A stretch of DNA of 64,000 nucleotides from Ectobacillus sp. JY-23 (GTDB lineage: Bacteria > Bacillota > Bacilli > Bacillales > Bacillaceae_G), in NCBI RefSeq assembly GCF_023022965.1, contig NZ_CP095462.1, forward strand, positions 1,116,001-1,180,000, given 5' to 3'. The translations under genes were made by a program, and so were the position numbers. This document shows, one piece after another, positions 35,978 to 57,639 of this stretch. Positions within the stretch are counted from its first letter, which is position 1, and every line of letters starts with the position of its first letter. The notes below the pieces were generated by a model. It worked only from the letters and a program-made list of their open reading frames with translations, was not told where the DNA came from and ran no database searches.

Positions 35978-36060
35978 GTTTCTTTCTCTCCTTCCAAACG
36001 GATGCTCTTACCAGTCTTATGCCGCAGCGGAACATCGTGGTTACGGACTCTATAAGTCAC
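35978..36060 (-). ncRNA. Candidate L19 leader RNA
   Basis: The transcribed region between the rplS promoter and its start codon is about 80 bases long, GC-richer than its surroundings, and contains GTCCGTAACCACGATGTTCC and AAGAGCATCCG segments. An L19 leader motif is known upstream of rplS in Bacilli. I infer membership from location and size and could not fold it. Confidence 0.45.
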
Positions 36061-53005: not shown

Positions 53006-54685
53006 TTATTCAACAGAGAAAATAAAGGCGTATAGGGGTTGATTCCCTTTGTGAATCTCAACTTCAACGTCTTCAAATTCCTCTTCCATAAATGTGAGCA
53101 ACGTTTGCACTTCTTCGTCTGTTGCATCTTCACCTTGTAGAATCGTTAGAATTTCAGAATCTTCATCCAGTAAACGCACAAGTAATTTTTTCGCAGCTTC
53201 CACTTTATCCTTGTCAGTCGCTACAATTTTACTTTCAGCAATACCCATAAAATCATCTTTTCTAATATCAATTCCATCCATTTGTGTATCGCGTACTGCA
53301 TATGTGATTTGCCCTGTTTTTACATGAGCTAATGCTTCTTTCATTGCATCTGCGTTTTCTTCCAAGGCCGCCCCCGGATTAAATGCAAGCATGGCCGCCA
53401 TACCCTGTGGTACTGTTTTAGAAGGAACCACGATAACTTCAGCCTCAGCCACAGAAGCAGCTTGCTGCGCAGCCATAACAATGTTGCTGTTGTTAGGCAA
53501 AATGATAATTTTTTCTGCATTTGCCTCTTCGATTGCTTTTACGATATCCTCTGTGCTTGGATTCATCGTTTGGCCGCCTTCAATAACCTGGGTTGCACCG
53601 ATGCTTTCAAATAGTGTTTTAATACCGGAGCCCATCGCTACTGTAACAATACCATAAGGCTGCTTTTCCTTTGGCTTGCTAGATGCCTCCATGGCAGCCA
53701 TTACCTCTGCCTCATCATGGAGCAGATGAGTGTGCTGTTCACGCATGTTTTCGACTTTGATGTTGATTAAACTTCCATAACGCTGGCCGTAGTTCATTGC
53801 ATCGCCAGGATGCTCCGCATGAATATGAACCTTTACAATTTCCTCGTCAGCAACAACTAGAAGAGAATCTCCATACACACTAATATCATTGCGGAACTTT
53901 TCCTCAGAAAATGGATGTTGTTTAAGCTTCTCAGCATCAAACTTCACCATAAACTCTGTGCAATAGCCATATTCGATATCTTCTGTACTTAAATGACTTT
54001 GTACATTGCGATGCTCTGTTTGTACCATTTGTTCCATAGAAGGTTGCCCTGCAGATAAAGTAATTTTCTCACCTTTTAACTCTGCCAAAAACCCTTCGTA
54101 TACAACACAAAGTCCTTTACCACCGCTATCTACTACCCCTACTTGCTTTAGTACAGGCAATAAATCAGGCGTACGGTTTAATGACGCATTTGCTTCTTTA
54201 ACAACTTCTTCCATAAACAATACAAAATCATCTTGTTTTTTTGCAATAGCCACAGCCTTTTTTGCTGTATCTTTTGCAACCGTCAAAATCGTTCCTTCAA
54301 TCGGTTTCATAACAGCCTTATATGCCGTTTCTACACCTGCTTCTAACCCTTGCGCAAAATCAACTGTTGTTAGAACTGCCTTTTGTTCAATCGATTTAGA
54401 AAGACCGCGGAATAGCTGTGACAAAATAACGCCTGAGTTACCACGAGCACCCATTAAAAGTCCTTTTGCTAAGCTAGCGCCTACTTTACCAGCGTGATCA
54501 GAACTGTTATTTTTTACTTCCTTGGCGCCCGATGTCATGGATAAGTTCATATTGGTACCGGTATCGCCATCAGGAACCGGGAAGACGTTCAGCGCATCTA
54601 CCAATTTCATGTTGTTTGTTAAGTTATTTGCACCTTGTATGATCATTTGCGCAAAACGCTGTCCATCAATTTGTTTCATTGACAC
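53006..54685 (-). CDS. fakA: Fatty acid kinase subunit FakA (YloV, DhaL-type)
   Basis: FakA phosphorylates exogenous fatty acids presented by FakB, feeding PlsX/PlsY. It is often annotated as DAK2-domain protein YloV. The 559-residue protein has an N-terminal DhaL kinase domain with NVFPVPDGDTGTNMNLSMTS (about residues 29-48, Mg/ATP aspartates) and LMGARGNSGVILSQLFRG. Middle and C-terminal domains follow, including EDIEYGYCTEFMVKFD (around 233) and a DegV-like C-terminus. The GTG at 54685 follows AAGGAGG. It lies 23 bp after yloU. Fatty-acid kinase function is known from Staphylococcus and inferred here. Confidence 0.93.
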   Translation of the reverse strand: MSMKQIDGQRFAQMIIQGANNLTNNMKLVDALNVFPVPDGDTGTNMNLSMTSGAKEVKNNSSDHAGKVGASLAKGLLMGARGNSGVILSQLFRGLSKSIEQKAVLTTVDFAQGLEAGVETAYKAVMKPIEGTILTVAKDTAKKAVAIAKKQDDFVLFMEEVVKEANASLNRTPDLLPVLKQVGVVDSGGKGLCVVYEGFLAELKGEKITLSAGQPSMEQMVQTEHRNVQSHLSTEDIEYGYCTEFMVKFDAEKLKQHPFSEEKFRNDISVYGDSLLVVADEEIVKVHIHAEHPGDAMNYGQRYGSLINIKVENMREQHTHLLHDEAEVMAAMEASSKPKEKQPYGIVTVAMGSGIKTLFESIGATQVIEGGQTMNPSTEDIVKAIEEANAEKIIILPNNSNIVMAAQQAASVAEAEVIVVPSKTVPQGMAAMLAFNPGAALEENADAMKEALAHVKTGQITYAVRDTQMDGIDIRKDDFMGIAESKIVATDKDKVEAAKKLLVRLLDEDSEILTILQGEDATDEEVQTLLTFMEEEFEDVEVEIHKGNQPLYAFIFSVE

Positions 54686-54708
54686 TGACCTTCCTCCTTA
54701 CTTGCACA

Positions 54709-55071
54709 TCACAAATTCGTTACTTTAACGCCCTGTACATAAATGTTCACTGAATCCACTGCTAGTCCTACTGTTTGATCCAATGTGTACTTGACTTTTG
54801 TTTGCACATTGTGTGCTACTTCTGAGATTTTTGTACCATAGCTTACAATAATATACATGTCAATATGTACTTCATCGTTTTCGTTTCGAACGATAACCCC
54901 GCGTGTGAAGTTTTCTTTTCTTAGGATTTCCGTTAGTCCGTCTTTTAATTGATTTTTGGAAGCCATTCCGACAATACCGTAGCAATCCACAGCAGCACCG
55001 CCTGCAATGGTTGCAATTACATCTGTGCTGATATCAATTTGACCGTACTGCGTTTTAATTTCGATTGACAT
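54709..55071 (-). CDS. yloU: Asp23/Gls24 family protein YloU
   Basis: YloU is a 120-residue Asp23-family protein, conserved before fakA in Firmicutes, with a role in envelope homeostasis suspected from staphylococcal Asp23. The sequence MSIEIKTQYGQIDISTDVIAT, then IAGGAAVDCYGIVGMASKNQ (about residues 22-41), and YIIVSYGTKISEVAHNVQTKV are family hallmarks. It starts the yloU-fakA operon; a probable promoter lies 50-75 bp upstream, beside the IS605-like element described below. I cannot assign a biochemical activity. Confidence 0.9.
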   Translation of the reverse strand: MSIEIKTQYGQIDISTDVIATIAGGAAVDCYGIVGMASKNQLKDGLTEILRKENFTRGVIVRNENDEVHIDMYIIVSYGTKISEVAHNVQTKVKYTLDQTVGLAVDSVNIYVQGVKVTNL

Positions 55072-55118
55072 ATGTGTTTCCCCCTTTGGTTATAGTCAAA
55101 GTGAGCTAGACTATCATT

Positions 55119-55148
55119 ATCATATACTGTTTGCGGCAAAAATTCCAA
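55119..55148 (-). promoter_or_regulatory. Putative promoter of yloU-fakA
   Basis: Minus-strand TTGGAA and TATGAT are spaced 18 bp (GATAAT at 55116-55121 is an alternative -10). The -35 begins 11 bases past the TTCAA end of the IS605-like element. Confidence 0.5.
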
Positions 55149-55158
55149 TTTTCGTTTT
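55139..55158 (-). other. Guide-like segment immediately past the IS605-type right end
   Basis: In TnpB systems the omega RNA continues about 16-20 bases past the element's right end as the targeting guide. Here those bases are AAAACGAAAATTGGAA and a few T, and they include the -35 of the yloU promoter. This is a positional inference only. Confidence 0.25.
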
Positions 55159-55419
55159 TTGAACTCCCCTCACTTAGCTAACGCTTGAAGTGCAGGATTC
55201 CTACAAACACCGATGTACCATCGGTTATTTAGAAGGCTACCCCCGTAGTCCCTACGGTTGATACGAATTTCGCATGCTATTACAACTTTGTTTTCACTTA
55301 GTCTTCGTGCTGTAATTTCACTGTTTTATCCTCTTTGCGACTTTTGAAAGATATGGGCGAACGACACCCACCCGACAAGTTCTCTTTACGCAACAAGAAA
55401 CCACGCTTGAATTCGTTTG
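55159..55419 (-). ncRNA. Candidate orphan omega-like RNA
   Basis: From about 55419 to the right end the minus strand carries several hairpins in a row: TGGGTG/CGCCCA (55354-55370), CCGTAG/CTACGG with a GGA loop (55243-55257), ACCGATG/CATCGGT with a GTA loop (55209-55225), and the terminal hairpin at 55171-55192. No coding frame accounts for them. The phrase GGGGGTAGCC between hairpins and GTAGGAATCCTGCAC before the last resemble omega RNAs next to IS605 tnpB in Bacillaceae, from memory. An extended -10 promoter lies at its 5' side. Confidence 0.4.
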
Positions 55420-55425
55420 ATGCCC

Positions 55426-55434
55426 ATTATACCA
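55426..55434 (-). promoter_or_regulatory. Extended -10 promoter for the omega-like RNA
   Basis: TGGTATAAT on the minus strand is a perfect extended -10 element, with no consensus -35. It would start an RNA near 55419. Confidence 0.4.
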
Positions 55435-55620
55435 AAAATTCAGGCGAACACCTACCGACATTCATCTCCCGTCTACTCATTGAGCTATCTCTTCACATTC
55501 CTTGCCGTGAGAGTCTTCTGTAGGAAATTAGATAAAAGTTACTTGCAATACAGCCACACGTTACCTAATGTGTGATTCTAGCACCTGTTATTACTATGAT
55601 AAGCAAAATAGTCCATTGTT

Positions 55621-55652
55621 ATTATACAACATAGTCTCCTATGTTATGTCAA
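55621..55652 (-). promoter_or_regulatory. MerR-type promoter geometry upstream of the omega-like element
   Basis: Consensus TTGACA and TATAAT are separated by 20 bp rather than 17. The spacer holds a perfect inverted repeat AACATAG-GAGA-CTATGTT (55628-55645). MerR-family activators twist such long-spacer promoters. It reads toward the element and yloU. No MerR gene is in the window. Confidence 0.45.
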
Positions 55653-55684
55653 GTAATTTTTCTTGATTTCTTTATTTAACTGTA

Positions 55685-55713
55685 TTGCATTCTCTCACTA
55701 CTTGTGATAAATT
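55685..55713 (+). promoter_or_regulatory. Putative promoter of rpmB
   Basis: Plus-strand TTGCAT and TAAATT are spaced 17 bp and lie 75 bp upstream of rpmB. Moderate matches; the leader would be about 68 bases. Confidence 0.35.
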
Positions 55714-55787
55714 ATAGAAGTGTTTTCAGCTTACAGACTGAGTATGTAAAATTTGGTATGTTCCGTAGAGTTAGGAGGGAAATATAG

Positions 55788-55976
55788 ATGGCTCGTGTAT
55801 GTGCAATTACAGGAAGAAAAGCTCGCACTGGTAACTCACGCTCTCACGCTATGAACGCTACTAAGCGTAAATGGGGTGCTAACCTTCAAAAAGTTCGCAT
55901 CGTTGTGAACGGTAAAGTGAAACGTGTTTACGTTTCTGCCAGAGCATTGAAATCAGGCAAAATCGAACGCGTATAA
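55788..55976 (+). CDS. rpmB: 50S ribosomal protein L28
   Basis: L28 is a small 50S protein near the L1 region. The 62-residue product begins [20 protein letters not shown] and has [23 protein letters not shown] (about residues 26-48), the family core. Only one cysteine (Cys5) is present, so it is not the four-cysteine zinc form. TAGGAGGG lies before the ATG. It is the only protein gene on the plus strand in the window, divergent from yloU and convergent with spoVM, as in Bacillus. Confidence 0.98.
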
Positions 55977-55977
55977 T

Positions 55978-56010
55978 AAAAAAAGAGCCGGAAAATTCGG
56001 CTCTTTTTTA
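55978..56010 (+). terminator. Terminator of rpmB
   Basis: AAAAGAGCCG / CGGCTCTTTT with seven T lies 2 bp past the stop. Confidence 0.9.
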
Positions 56011-56105
56011 TTTGAGACAATCTATTGTATATATTATTATTATATACTGTAACTAGATGTTGATTGAGATTATTTGCAAGTTGGAGTTTAAGACAGCACA
56101 AGATT

Positions 56106-56135
56106 AAAAAAAGCACCGTTTGCGGTGCTTTTTTT
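56106..56135. terminator. Bidirectional terminator between spoVM and rpmB
   Basis: GCACCG / CGGTGC flanked by A7 and T7 on the two sides overlaps the spoVM stop codon and separates it from convergent rpmB. Confidence 0.85.
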
Positions 56136-56214
56136 AATCTTTTTTAAATGTATTCAGCATCGCACGTACAAGGCCACCCAGAAACTTTGGCAATTTAATT
56201 GTATAAAATCTCAT
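56134..56214 (-). CDS. spoVM: Stage V sporulation protein M (26 residues)
   Basis: SpoVM is a tiny amphipathic peptide that recognises convex membrane of the forespore and anchors SpoIVA and the coat. The 26-residue product starts MRFYTIKLPKFLGGLVRAML and ends NTFKKD, nearly the B. subtilis peptide, including the helix-breaking Pro9. GGGAGGG lies 5 bases before the ATG, and a sigma-E-like promoter precedes it. It sits between thiN and rpmB, the conserved location. It is too short for routine gene finders and is easily missed. Confidence 0.95.
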   Translation of the reverse strand: MRFYTIKLPKFLGGLVRAMLNTFKKD

Positions 56215-56244
56215 GGTTTCCCTCCCACTCCCCATTGCTCACAT

Positions 56245-56273
56245 AATGTATGGTTGACAAGAATTGTATTAAT
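56245..56273 (-). promoter_or_regulatory. Sigma-E-like promoter of spoVM
   Basis: Minus-strand CATACATT is a perfect match to the sigma-E -10 (CATACANT). ATTAATA lies 14 bp upstream as a partial -35 and overlaps the thiN stop. spoVM is a mother-cell sigma-E gene in B. subtilis. Confidence 0.6.
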
Positions 56274-56910
56274 CAGTACTACTTATCACCAATAATATGC
56301 CGCTCGTAAATGAAAAAGTACCTTTTTTAGTACTGAGTTCATTACTTACACATAAAGTAGAGCCCCACTGAATGGTTTGATTGTGAAGAGGATATTTAAA
56401 ACCTTGTAATGTAATGCCTGTAACCGTTTCTGTTAAAGGCAAGAAAGATATGTATGGAAATCGTTGATTTTGTTCAATTACATAGGTTCCTGCACGTTTT
56501 ATACCAATTTCATTTTTATGATCTACCAGTATCATTTCTGTTTCAACATCTAAACTTCTCACCAACAGTTGAATATTGGCTAATCCATGATCTAATCTGC
56601 CACCTGTTGCTCCGAAGATGCGTATGATATCCGGCTTTTGTTTCAATGCCCATGTTACTGCGAGCTCTAAATCTGTCTCATCTTTTTCCTTCGGCAGAAT
56701 GTGTAAAGTAGTTTGTTCACGCATCCACCGCAGTTCTTCTTCTGACACTGAATCGTAATCTCCGAAAGCTGCAATAGGCGTGATATTTCGCTGCAGCAAA
56801 TAAAACACCCCTCGATCCGCAGCCACCCACTGCACATCATCATTTTCGTAATAAGAGAAGTCTGGATAATGATCGACAGGTCCACCTGCCAAAATATGGA
56901 ATATTTTCAT
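56269..56910 (-). CDS. thiN: Thiamine pyrophosphokinase
   Basis: ThiN converts thiamine directly to thiamine diphosphate using ATP. The 213-residue product starts MKIFHILAGGPVDHYPDFSYYE and has VAADRGVFYLLQRNITPIAAFGDYDSV (about residues 31-57, with the catalytic GD.DS). DETDLELAVTWAL and the IFGATGGRLDHGLANIQLL motif lie near 120. The ATG at 56910 follows AAGGAG by 6 bases; a start at 56937 is rejected. It follows rpe after a hairpin. The spoVM promoter is embedded in its 3' end. Confidence 0.95.
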   Translation of the reverse strand: MKIFHILAGGPVDHYPDFSYYENDDVQWVAADRGVFYLLQRNITPIAAFGDYDSVSEEELRWMREQTTLHILPKEKDETDLELAVTWALKQKPDIIRIFGATGGRLDHGLANIQLLVRSLDVETEMILVDHKNEIGIKRAGTYVIEQNQRFPYISFLPLTETVTGITLQGFKYPLHNQTIQWGSTLCVSNELSTKKGTFSFTSGILLVISSTD

Positions 56911-56954
56911 GTCATTCTCCTTAGTATTCGGAAGCACTCATTTCAATGCATATC

Positions 56955-56992
56955 AAAGAGGATGCCCCCATCATTGTTTGAGGCACCCTCTT
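56955..56992 (-). terminator. Hairpin between rpe and thiN
   Basis: AAGAGGGTGCC / GGCATCCTCTT with a long loop lies 2 bp past the rpe stop but has only three T after it, so it is a weak terminator. Confidence 0.55.
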
Positions 56993-56994
56993 CT

Positions 56995-57639
56995 TTAACC
57001 GCGTAGACTGCGAATTGCTTCGACACGATCCGTTTTGTTGTAGACAGCTGAGCCTGCAACTAGGACGTTGGCTCCCGCTTCTACACAAAGCTTTGCCGTC
57101 TCAGTATTTACACCGCCGTCTACTTCAATTTCTACGTTTAAACCACGTTCTCTGACCATATCCGCCACCTGCTCAATCTTTGGTAAAACTGATGCAATGA
57201 ACGTCTGACCTCCAAAGCCTGGGTTAACAGTCATTAAAAGAACCATATCTACTTCATCGATAATATGTTCAATCATTGATACAGGGGTATGAGGGTTTAA
57301 AACTACCCCAGCTTTCACACCGTATGATTTAATAAGTTGAATAGTTCTGTGAAGATGCGGACACGCTTCTACATGTACAGTGATAATATCTGCTCCTGCC
57401 TTAGCAAATGTTTCGATATAAGCATCCGGATTTTCAATCATCAGATGGACATCCAAGGGTAGATTTGTAACTGGTCTGATTGCCTCAACAATAAGCGGTC
57501 CAATCGTAATATTAGGTACAAAGTGACCATCCATGACATCTACATGTATATAATCTGCTCCGCCACGCTCTACCTCTCGCACTTCTTCACCCAATTTTGC
57601 AAAGTCTGCTGATAAAATAGAAGGTGCAATTTTAATCAT
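56995..57639 (-). CDS. rpe: Ribulose-phosphate 3-epimerase
   Basis: Rpe interconverts ribulose-5-phosphate and xylulose-5-phosphate in the pentose phosphate pathway. The 214-residue TIM barrel has [34 protein letters not shown] (about residues 32-48, metal-binding His and Asp), [26 protein letters not shown] and [11 protein letters not shown] (about 174-184). It lies 2 bp after rsgA, in the usual prkC-rsgA-rpe-thiN string. Confidence 0.97.

Follow-up and report, generated by a model that had tools for sequence, protein, structure and literature searches.

We found that the window, the whole 64,000-nucleotide stretch of DNA analysed here (G000:C1:1116001-1180000, in a genome that is a single contig of 3.9 Mb), contains what is best read as a whole, protein-less and non-autonomous element of the IS200/IS605 type, located at 55531-55159 on the minus strand, 3' of TTTTAT. 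In our best explanation, which we hold with slightly better than even confidence, elements of this kind are non-autonomous IS200/IS605 elements that make a guide RNA of their own, which stands alone and works with TnpB in trans. We observed the ends, the target motif, an apparent empty site, the homology of the right end, the absence of TnpB and a dispersed family of such elements. The left end, which makes the element whole, the 5' module, which is foreign to TnpB elements, and the membership in a family go beyond the original prediction for this DNA.

The element is inserted between asp23/yloU (54709-55071, minus strand) and rpmB (55788-55976, plus strand), genes that were named by reading. 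On the minus strand, its order is a left-end palindrome, an extended -10, a 5' RNA module, an omega (guide-RNA) module and GTTCAA. The flank TTTTAT, with the target or TAM-like motif TTTAT, was read in the sequence directly 5' of the element (55532..55537, minus strand). The left end (55443..55531, minus strand) is an imperfect palindrome, CCTACAGAAGACTCTCAC...GGGAGATGAATGTCGGTAGG, recognized by its homology to other left ends; it is 83% identical to the left end at G000:C1:3025603 and 82% identical to that at 2899760, which belongs to the TnpB element L023. Both the left and the right ends of the window element are homologous to those of this autonomous TnpB element. The promoter-like extended -10, TGGTATAAT, had been predicted before, and we confirmed it by reading at 55426..55434 on the minus strand, just outside the 5' edge originally given to the feature. 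Next come the 5' RNA module of type I (55321..55427, minus strand), assigned by the covariance model R1 and a blastn-conserved core, and a middle part (55260..55320, minus strand) with CACGAAGACTAAG (CACGAAAACCAAG in relatives) and the hairpin ATGCGAAATTCGTAT, the core of which is shared with relatives. In all, about 165 nt of non-coding sequence lie between the extended -10 and the right end on this strand. The omega-RNA-type right end (55159..55259, minus strand), assigned by the covariance model R2, comprises hairpin A, a long-range helix, hairpin B, a terminal hairpin and GTTCAA, and the element ends in ...GGGAGTTCAA at 55159. The sequence AAAACGAAAATTGGAATTTTT, read just outside the element (55138..55158, minus strand), would be the guide, judging from how TnpB omega RNAs work.

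TTTAT was present at 10 of the 12 TnpB-less elements whose left end could be read (G000, G001a, L037, L038, L039, L159, L160, L161, L162, L167, L223 and L227) by a pattern scan that required TTTAT in its own definition, and at the other two by eye. It also flanks the TnpB element L023 and a lone left end (L025) in the window genome, which holds an 88-bp remnant (L026) as well. The g2 copies L031-L034 and L040 had no clear left end. The extended -10 reads TGATATAAT in the orthologous copy in G001, TGATACAAT in L159, and TGGTAAAAT or TGGTAGAAT in L223, L227 and L167; in L161 and L162, none was found. A core like CACGAAAACCAAG occurs in L161, L162, L027 and L011 and takes the form GCGAAAACCAAGC in the second type of element described below (type II). 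When a single mismatch is tolerated, chance occurrences of the core turn up in L088, L101, L143/L146 and L147 as well.

The R2 model was built on 45 right ends from TnpB-bearing loci only (alignment A3), that is, from L023, L182, L135 and 42 of the 80 named TnpB loci, selected for their motif and length; these 80 are the best 80 of 356 relatives and are all kin of one TnpB. R2 matched the window at 55159-55259 on the minus strand with 88.6 bits (E = 4.7e-20). In the whole genome, it found two sites only at E <= 0.001, the window element and the TnpB element, and at E <= 1e-9 it matched 13 of the 15 other TnpB-less elements tested, missing L031 and L160. The right end of the window element is 74% identical to the TnpB right end of its own genome, which is no nearer to it than some others are, such as those of L189 (75%) and L074 (85%); this speaks against our best explanation. 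Judging from the matches of R2 and from the covariation described below, the right end is a real omega-type module that is homologous to TnpB right ends. The original prediction of an IS605-type right end that has an omega-RNA-like module but no TnpB was thus borne out by R2 and by the six-frame translation, in which no TnpB was found. Rfam 15 gave no match on the element at gathering thresholds (best E 0.12). Because the right end of the TnpB-bearing relative escapes Rfam 15 at these thresholds too, the lack of a match on the element is uninformative. The sole match at gathering score in the window was a ribosomal protein L19 leader (RF00556) at 35999-36038 on the minus strand.

The predicted series of hairpins on the minus strand was also found, as hairpin A (55257-55243), hairpin B (55225-55209), the terminal hairpin (55192-55171) and a long-range helix (55236-55232 with 55204-55200); hairpins 5' of hairpin A are weak in the window copy. 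The long-range helix forms four of its five pairs in the window copy, and the broken pair is broken in the G001 ortholog as well. In alignment A4, which consists of 7 TnpB-less and 17 TnpB right ends and excludes the g2 copies and L160, the scaffold folds into three helices with 97.4% of the cells paired; double changes occur at 12 of the 16 pairs, and the covariation was 0.538, versus 0.205 in shuffled and at most 0.141 in slid alignments. In many TnpB elements, hairpin A also forms part of the tnpB coding sequence, which offers another possible reason for its conservation. The folding energy of the feature as a whole (282 nt) was no better than chance (z = -1.41, equalled in 20 of 200 shuffles). 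Among the modules, the right end alone folds above chance (z = -2.20, 6/200); the values were z = 0.24 (113/200) for the left end, -0.22 (74/200) for the 5' domain and -0.93 (36/200) for the middle part.

The element contains neither tnpA nor tnpB and no open reading frame longer than 62 amino acids. The only two frames of at least 50 amino acids, of 62 and 52 residues, overlap each other on the plus strand and have no Pfam match at E <= 1, so that, as originally noted, no reading frame explains the hairpins. A protein profile from 33 of the 80 named TnpB loci found no TnpB in the six-frame translation of the element (best E 0.17). When a TnpB profile was run on 21 TnpB-less loci, and on the stretch 53600-57100 of the window, nothing appeared at E <= 0.01, whereas the positive control, L023, was found. 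A DNA profile of tnpB 3' ends and right ends, from 32 of the named loci, aligned to all 12 elements tested. Its match began at position 123-139 of 245 in 11 of them (134 in the window element) and at 175 in L160; positions 123-139 lie at or just 5' of hairpin A. A decayed tnpB as the source of the 5' module was rejected by both profiles. Short translated stretches at the right ends of L167 and L011 resemble the TnpB C-terminus, at a level that was not significant.

The type I model, R1, was built on 10 copies. The type I core (55417-55333, by blastn) is 82-85% identical in another genus, and R1 matched 9 of 397 genomes of the order, at 13 places in families f1, f35 and f40. No TnpB was found in the stretches surrounding these 13 places and two more in G012, and R1 was absent from the 80 named L023-like TnpB loci (best E 3). 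As the type I module is absent from L023-like TnpB loci yet recurs without TnpB, the element is not simply a tnpB deletion. Type I shows modest covariation, with double changes at 5 of 15 pairs (0.179 versus 0.108), and in the structure that RNAalifold itself gave for the first ten copies, 1 of 18 pairs had double changes. In the g2 elements L037-L039, the 5' module is 82-83% identical to that of the window, and the right ends are 80-89% identical to resident g2 TnpB right ends, 57-68% identical to five other types compared and at most 71% identical to 75 named ones. We read this pattern as a probable exchange of the scaffold with resident elements; alternatively, the right ends may have diverged from a common ancestor.

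A search with R2 within the genus led to the TnpB-less elements L223 and L227 in G003, which have a second 5' module (type II). Elements of type II are also present on plasmids of Peribacillus asahii, Bacillus arachidis and Brevibacillus halotolerans. In five copies, 14 of 21 pairs had double changes (0.695 versus 0.302). The type II covariance model, R3, matched 36 of the 397 genomes and 25 of the 135 sampled genera, where matches near E 1e-4 are uncertain; the highest count was at least 8 per genome, a floor because 8 candidates were scored in each genome. In the window genome, R3 matched G000:C1:3541411-3541499 (L253), and in G001, it matched two places. L253 is a type II-like element whose right end, read by eye as ..GTGGGAGTGTCAA, is of a different kind. 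In an alignment of 30 matches at 29 loci (A7, without L254 and L256-L260), which was fitted to the model, 97.5% of the cells were paired and 18 of 21 pairs were doubly changed, with a covariation of 0.626 versus 0.178 after shuffling. At E <= 0.1, R2 recognized a right end in 22 of the 30 type II loci, with 14 of them reaching E <= 1e-10, and the module lies upstream of several types of right end, that of R2 and further ones recognized by eye. The TnpB profile matched none of the 30 loci, R3 found nothing in 59 of the 80 named TnpB loci (best E 0.62), and in the five loci scanned with Rfam 15, the module had no match at E <= 0.5. We regard type II as a candidate RNA family with good support.

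Just after the promoter-like site, type II opens with TTGCTCTTTGAAAAC or a close variant, as seen in L223, L227, L229, L230, L167 and many of L231-L260; the sequence resembles the boxA antitermination element of rRNA operons. We also considered whether types I and II form one sequence family and rejected this, as R3 had no match on the window module or other type I modules. The two types share their architecture and short motifs (GCGTAAA, CGAAAACCAAG), and their common descent is unproven because R3 misses the type I modules. In G003 (E. panaciterrae), a HEARO RNA (RF02033; L223:113-345, minus strand), which is an IscB guide RNA, lies about 0.5 kb away from a type II element. In G001, five R2 matches of equal score (53 bits) lie near contig ends (C16:48345, C7:69556, C28:13521, C39:9134 and C67:16) and probably represent a multi-copy IS.

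R1 or R3 matched 41 of the 397 genomes in total. An L023-like TnpB (E <= 1e-60) was present in 31 of these 41 genomes versus 86 of the 356 others (Fisher p = 1.2e-10) and, without G000 and G001, in 29 of 39 versus 86 of 356 (p = 8e-10), by raw counts that are uncorrected for phylogeny or general IS load. The other 10 of the 41 had no TnpB at E <= 1e-60, and weaker or other kinds may exist in them; G366, for instance, has a TnpB at E 7e-46. Such co-occurrence is expected if the RNA needs TnpB in trans, and also if both come with IS-rich genomes. Six plasmid records matched the window element and six matched L227. The L038 element matched 631 plasmid records, 614 of them from Enterococcus, and 39 phage records, with its right-end part only among the matches listed. 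The 5' part of the window element matched 10 phage records, with the left-end part only among the matches listed, and a left-end match was also found in a plasmid stretch of Bacillus methanolicus. In a pattern scan of viral contigs, none of the 13 stretches found had an element around the pattern.

As originally proposed, a TnpB with matching ends is encoded elsewhere in the genome (G000:C1:2900058-2901209, element L023, 384 amino acids). It is the one close TnpB in G000, and its element shares both the TTTTAT flank and the terminal GTTCAA with the window element. The protein retains its Pfam domains, and by eye, its translation appears to have the RuvC D/E/D residues. The genome was searched for targets of the guide (TTTAT and 18 nt, up to 3 mismatches), and only the element's own junction was found. 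A nuclease-dead partner (TldR), which the original prediction had also suggested, thus found no support in the close TnpB, with its Pfam domains and D/E/D, or in the search for a second guide target. A second TnpB (L024, G000:C1:3167000-3171000) is IS607-like, with a RAGATH-18 RNA just 3' and an open reading frame of 133 amino acids with a resolvase domain 5'. In L023, a 45-amino-acid antisense frame between the left end and tnpB (L023:1856-1993, minus strand) is weakly similar to ribbon-helix-helix proteins (DUF6364, E 4.3e-5; RHH_3, E 0.0011; both below cut-offs); one regular expression found no such frame in the 80 named TnpB loci. Y1 TnpA (PF01797) is present in G001, G002 and G003 and has no match in G000; thus, the window copy is probably immobile now, at least by the TnpA route. 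Descent from an IS200/IS605 element requires no present TnpA in the cell.

The history of the window copy was examined in relatives. G001 has an orthologous copy, inserted at the same site, and G003, which like G002 is of the same genus as the window genome, has an apparent empty site, ATTTTAT|TTAAGGGAAATGGAATTTTC, with the bar placed by reading. In the G003 alignment, the gap lies a few bases off the bar and a second indel lies upstream; thus, the exact border of the element rests on the matches to L023. The downstream flanks of TnpB in G003 and G002 are identical to those of loci of Ectobacillus panaciterrae (L077, L081) and E. funiculus (L095), from which we conclude that the shared genus is Ectobacillus. 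The end of the G001 ortholog has decayed to GTTCCC in place of GTTCAA. Between G000 and G001, the element is 81.1% identical (301 of 371 aligned positions, 8 gap columns), the flanking intergenic DNA 97.4% (334/343), and the four-fold sites of nine neighbouring genes 78.1% (893/1144); the element differs from the flanks (p = 4e-13) and is not distinguished from the four-fold sites (p = 0.21). The window copy drifts at about the neutral rate, with no constraint visible, and its RNA, if made, is without detectable selection. The copy may be a relic. The original prediction had called a dead relic the simpler explanation, and drift among relatives, which it had named as evidence against its own omega-RNA reading, is what the G001 ortholog shows; for the window copy, a relic is therefore still likely.

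In the mechanism that we propose for the family, transcription from the promoter-like site would run through the 5' module and the omega scaffold, past GTTCAA and into the flank, which would supply the guide. A TnpB encoded elsewhere in the genome would bind the RNA of the element, and the complex would cut the donor site once it is empty, which would lead to the element being copied back into it. Such cutting of the donor site and copying back is a proposal for TnpB elements in general. Mobility would be supplied by TnpA in trans. With confidence a little short of even, we suggest more broadly that RNA-only transposons of the IS605 type are widespread in Bacillales, in which a promoter and a dedicated structured RNA module, joined to an omega scaffold, have replaced tnpB. 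They would survive by programming the TnpB that other elements encode in the same cell; their scaffold would track the clade of the resident TnpB, with the 5' module being handed on.

The elements could instead be plain MITEs, whose ends are kept for the DNA hairpins of TnpA, with the omega RNA as a by-product and the window copy as a dead relic. We regard this as rather unlikely, though to be taken seriously, as it agrees with the neutral drift of the window copy, with the decayed end in G001, and with the 88-bp remnant and the lone left end in the window genome. However, ends that serve TnpA need no promoter-like site and no base-paired 5' module with compensatory changes across 25 of 135 genera, nor do they need the compensatory changes in an RNA-type scaffold. 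Another explanation is that the 5' module is an independent functional RNA, for antitermination, stability or other regulation, which rides on the elements, the omega part being secondary. The position of the type II module upstream of several right-end types and the boxA-like TTGCTCTTTGAAAAC, or a close variant of it, with which most type II copies open speak for it, but an omega-type right end lies 3' of the module in 22 of 30 loci (14 of them at E <= 1e-10), and we consider this explanation improbable.

Two further explanations give the window RNA a role in the host. A guide for a nuclease-dead TnpB (TldR) that regulates a host gene would suit the stand-alone placement between asp23 and rpmB, and PMC13418256 suggests that guides may act in trans with TldR; according to the same paper, shorter guide matches suffice for one TldR. 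However, the search with TTTAT and 18 nt at up to 3 mismatches found no second target, the domains of the close TnpB are present and the sequence is not constrained, and we consider this role very improbable. A host-domesticated RNA or a regulatory leader for rpmB or asp23 is scarcely credible: a copy is kept at the same site in two species, but it drifts almost neutrally while the flanks are 97% conserved, and it is absent in G003.

Several known systems are close to these elements. One is the IS200/IS605 TnpB elements with an omega RNA, the subject of PMC8612924 and PMC10278001. The present elements resemble them in the left-end palindrome, the fixed flanking motif, the homologous right-end scaffold and the position of the guide, and differ from them in lacking tnpB, in having a promoter-like site of their own, and in that a 5' RNA module without relation to tnpB takes the place of the coding region. 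As protein-less elements with both ends, they are like IS200/IS605 MITEs and PATEs; however, PATEs are known as ends with little else, whereas the window family carries an RNA module with covariation. Altae-Tran reportedly described stand-alone omega RNAs for IscB in 2021. These likewise keep the guide RNA apart from the nuclease gene, but they belong to IscB/HEARO and not to TnpB, and they are not known to have a 5' module like that of the window element. Protein-less IS605 elements and TnpB omega RNAs are already known, and stand-alone guides are reported for IscB. Stand-alone guides have also been suggested for TldR (PMC13418256).

The bcr repeats of the Bacillus cereus group are 100-400 bp long and have a TTTAT motif; in PMC6542083 and PMC3446304, bcr1-3 are described as MITE-like, about half of the copies as expressed, and some as having predicted RNA structures. 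Our elements are similar to these descriptions in size, TTTAT motif and MITE-like character. The RAGATH-18 reRNA of IS607 TnpB is likewise a TnpB guide scaffold, but of another kind and from another transposon family; according to PMC11061315, 10,258 of its 16,029 copies adjoin IS607 TnpB, so that a third do not. Ref70, the Enterococcus sRNA 70 (RF02841), weakly matched the right ends of the window element (E 0.12) and L230 (E 0.02), with 23.6 and 32.5 bits, far under its gathering score of 115 bits; our guess is that Ref70 may itself be such a right end. Among the open-access literature matches listed, judged mostly by titles and the openings of abstracts, none reported TnpB-less IS605 elements with a conserved RNA module.

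If the preferred reading is true, guide RNAs themselves would be selfish elements that parasitise a nuclease of the CRISPR-ancestor kind. The elements would then represent a natural separation of the nuclease from its guide, comparable to that underlying CRISPR arrays, and the type II module offers many natural pairs of guide and target.
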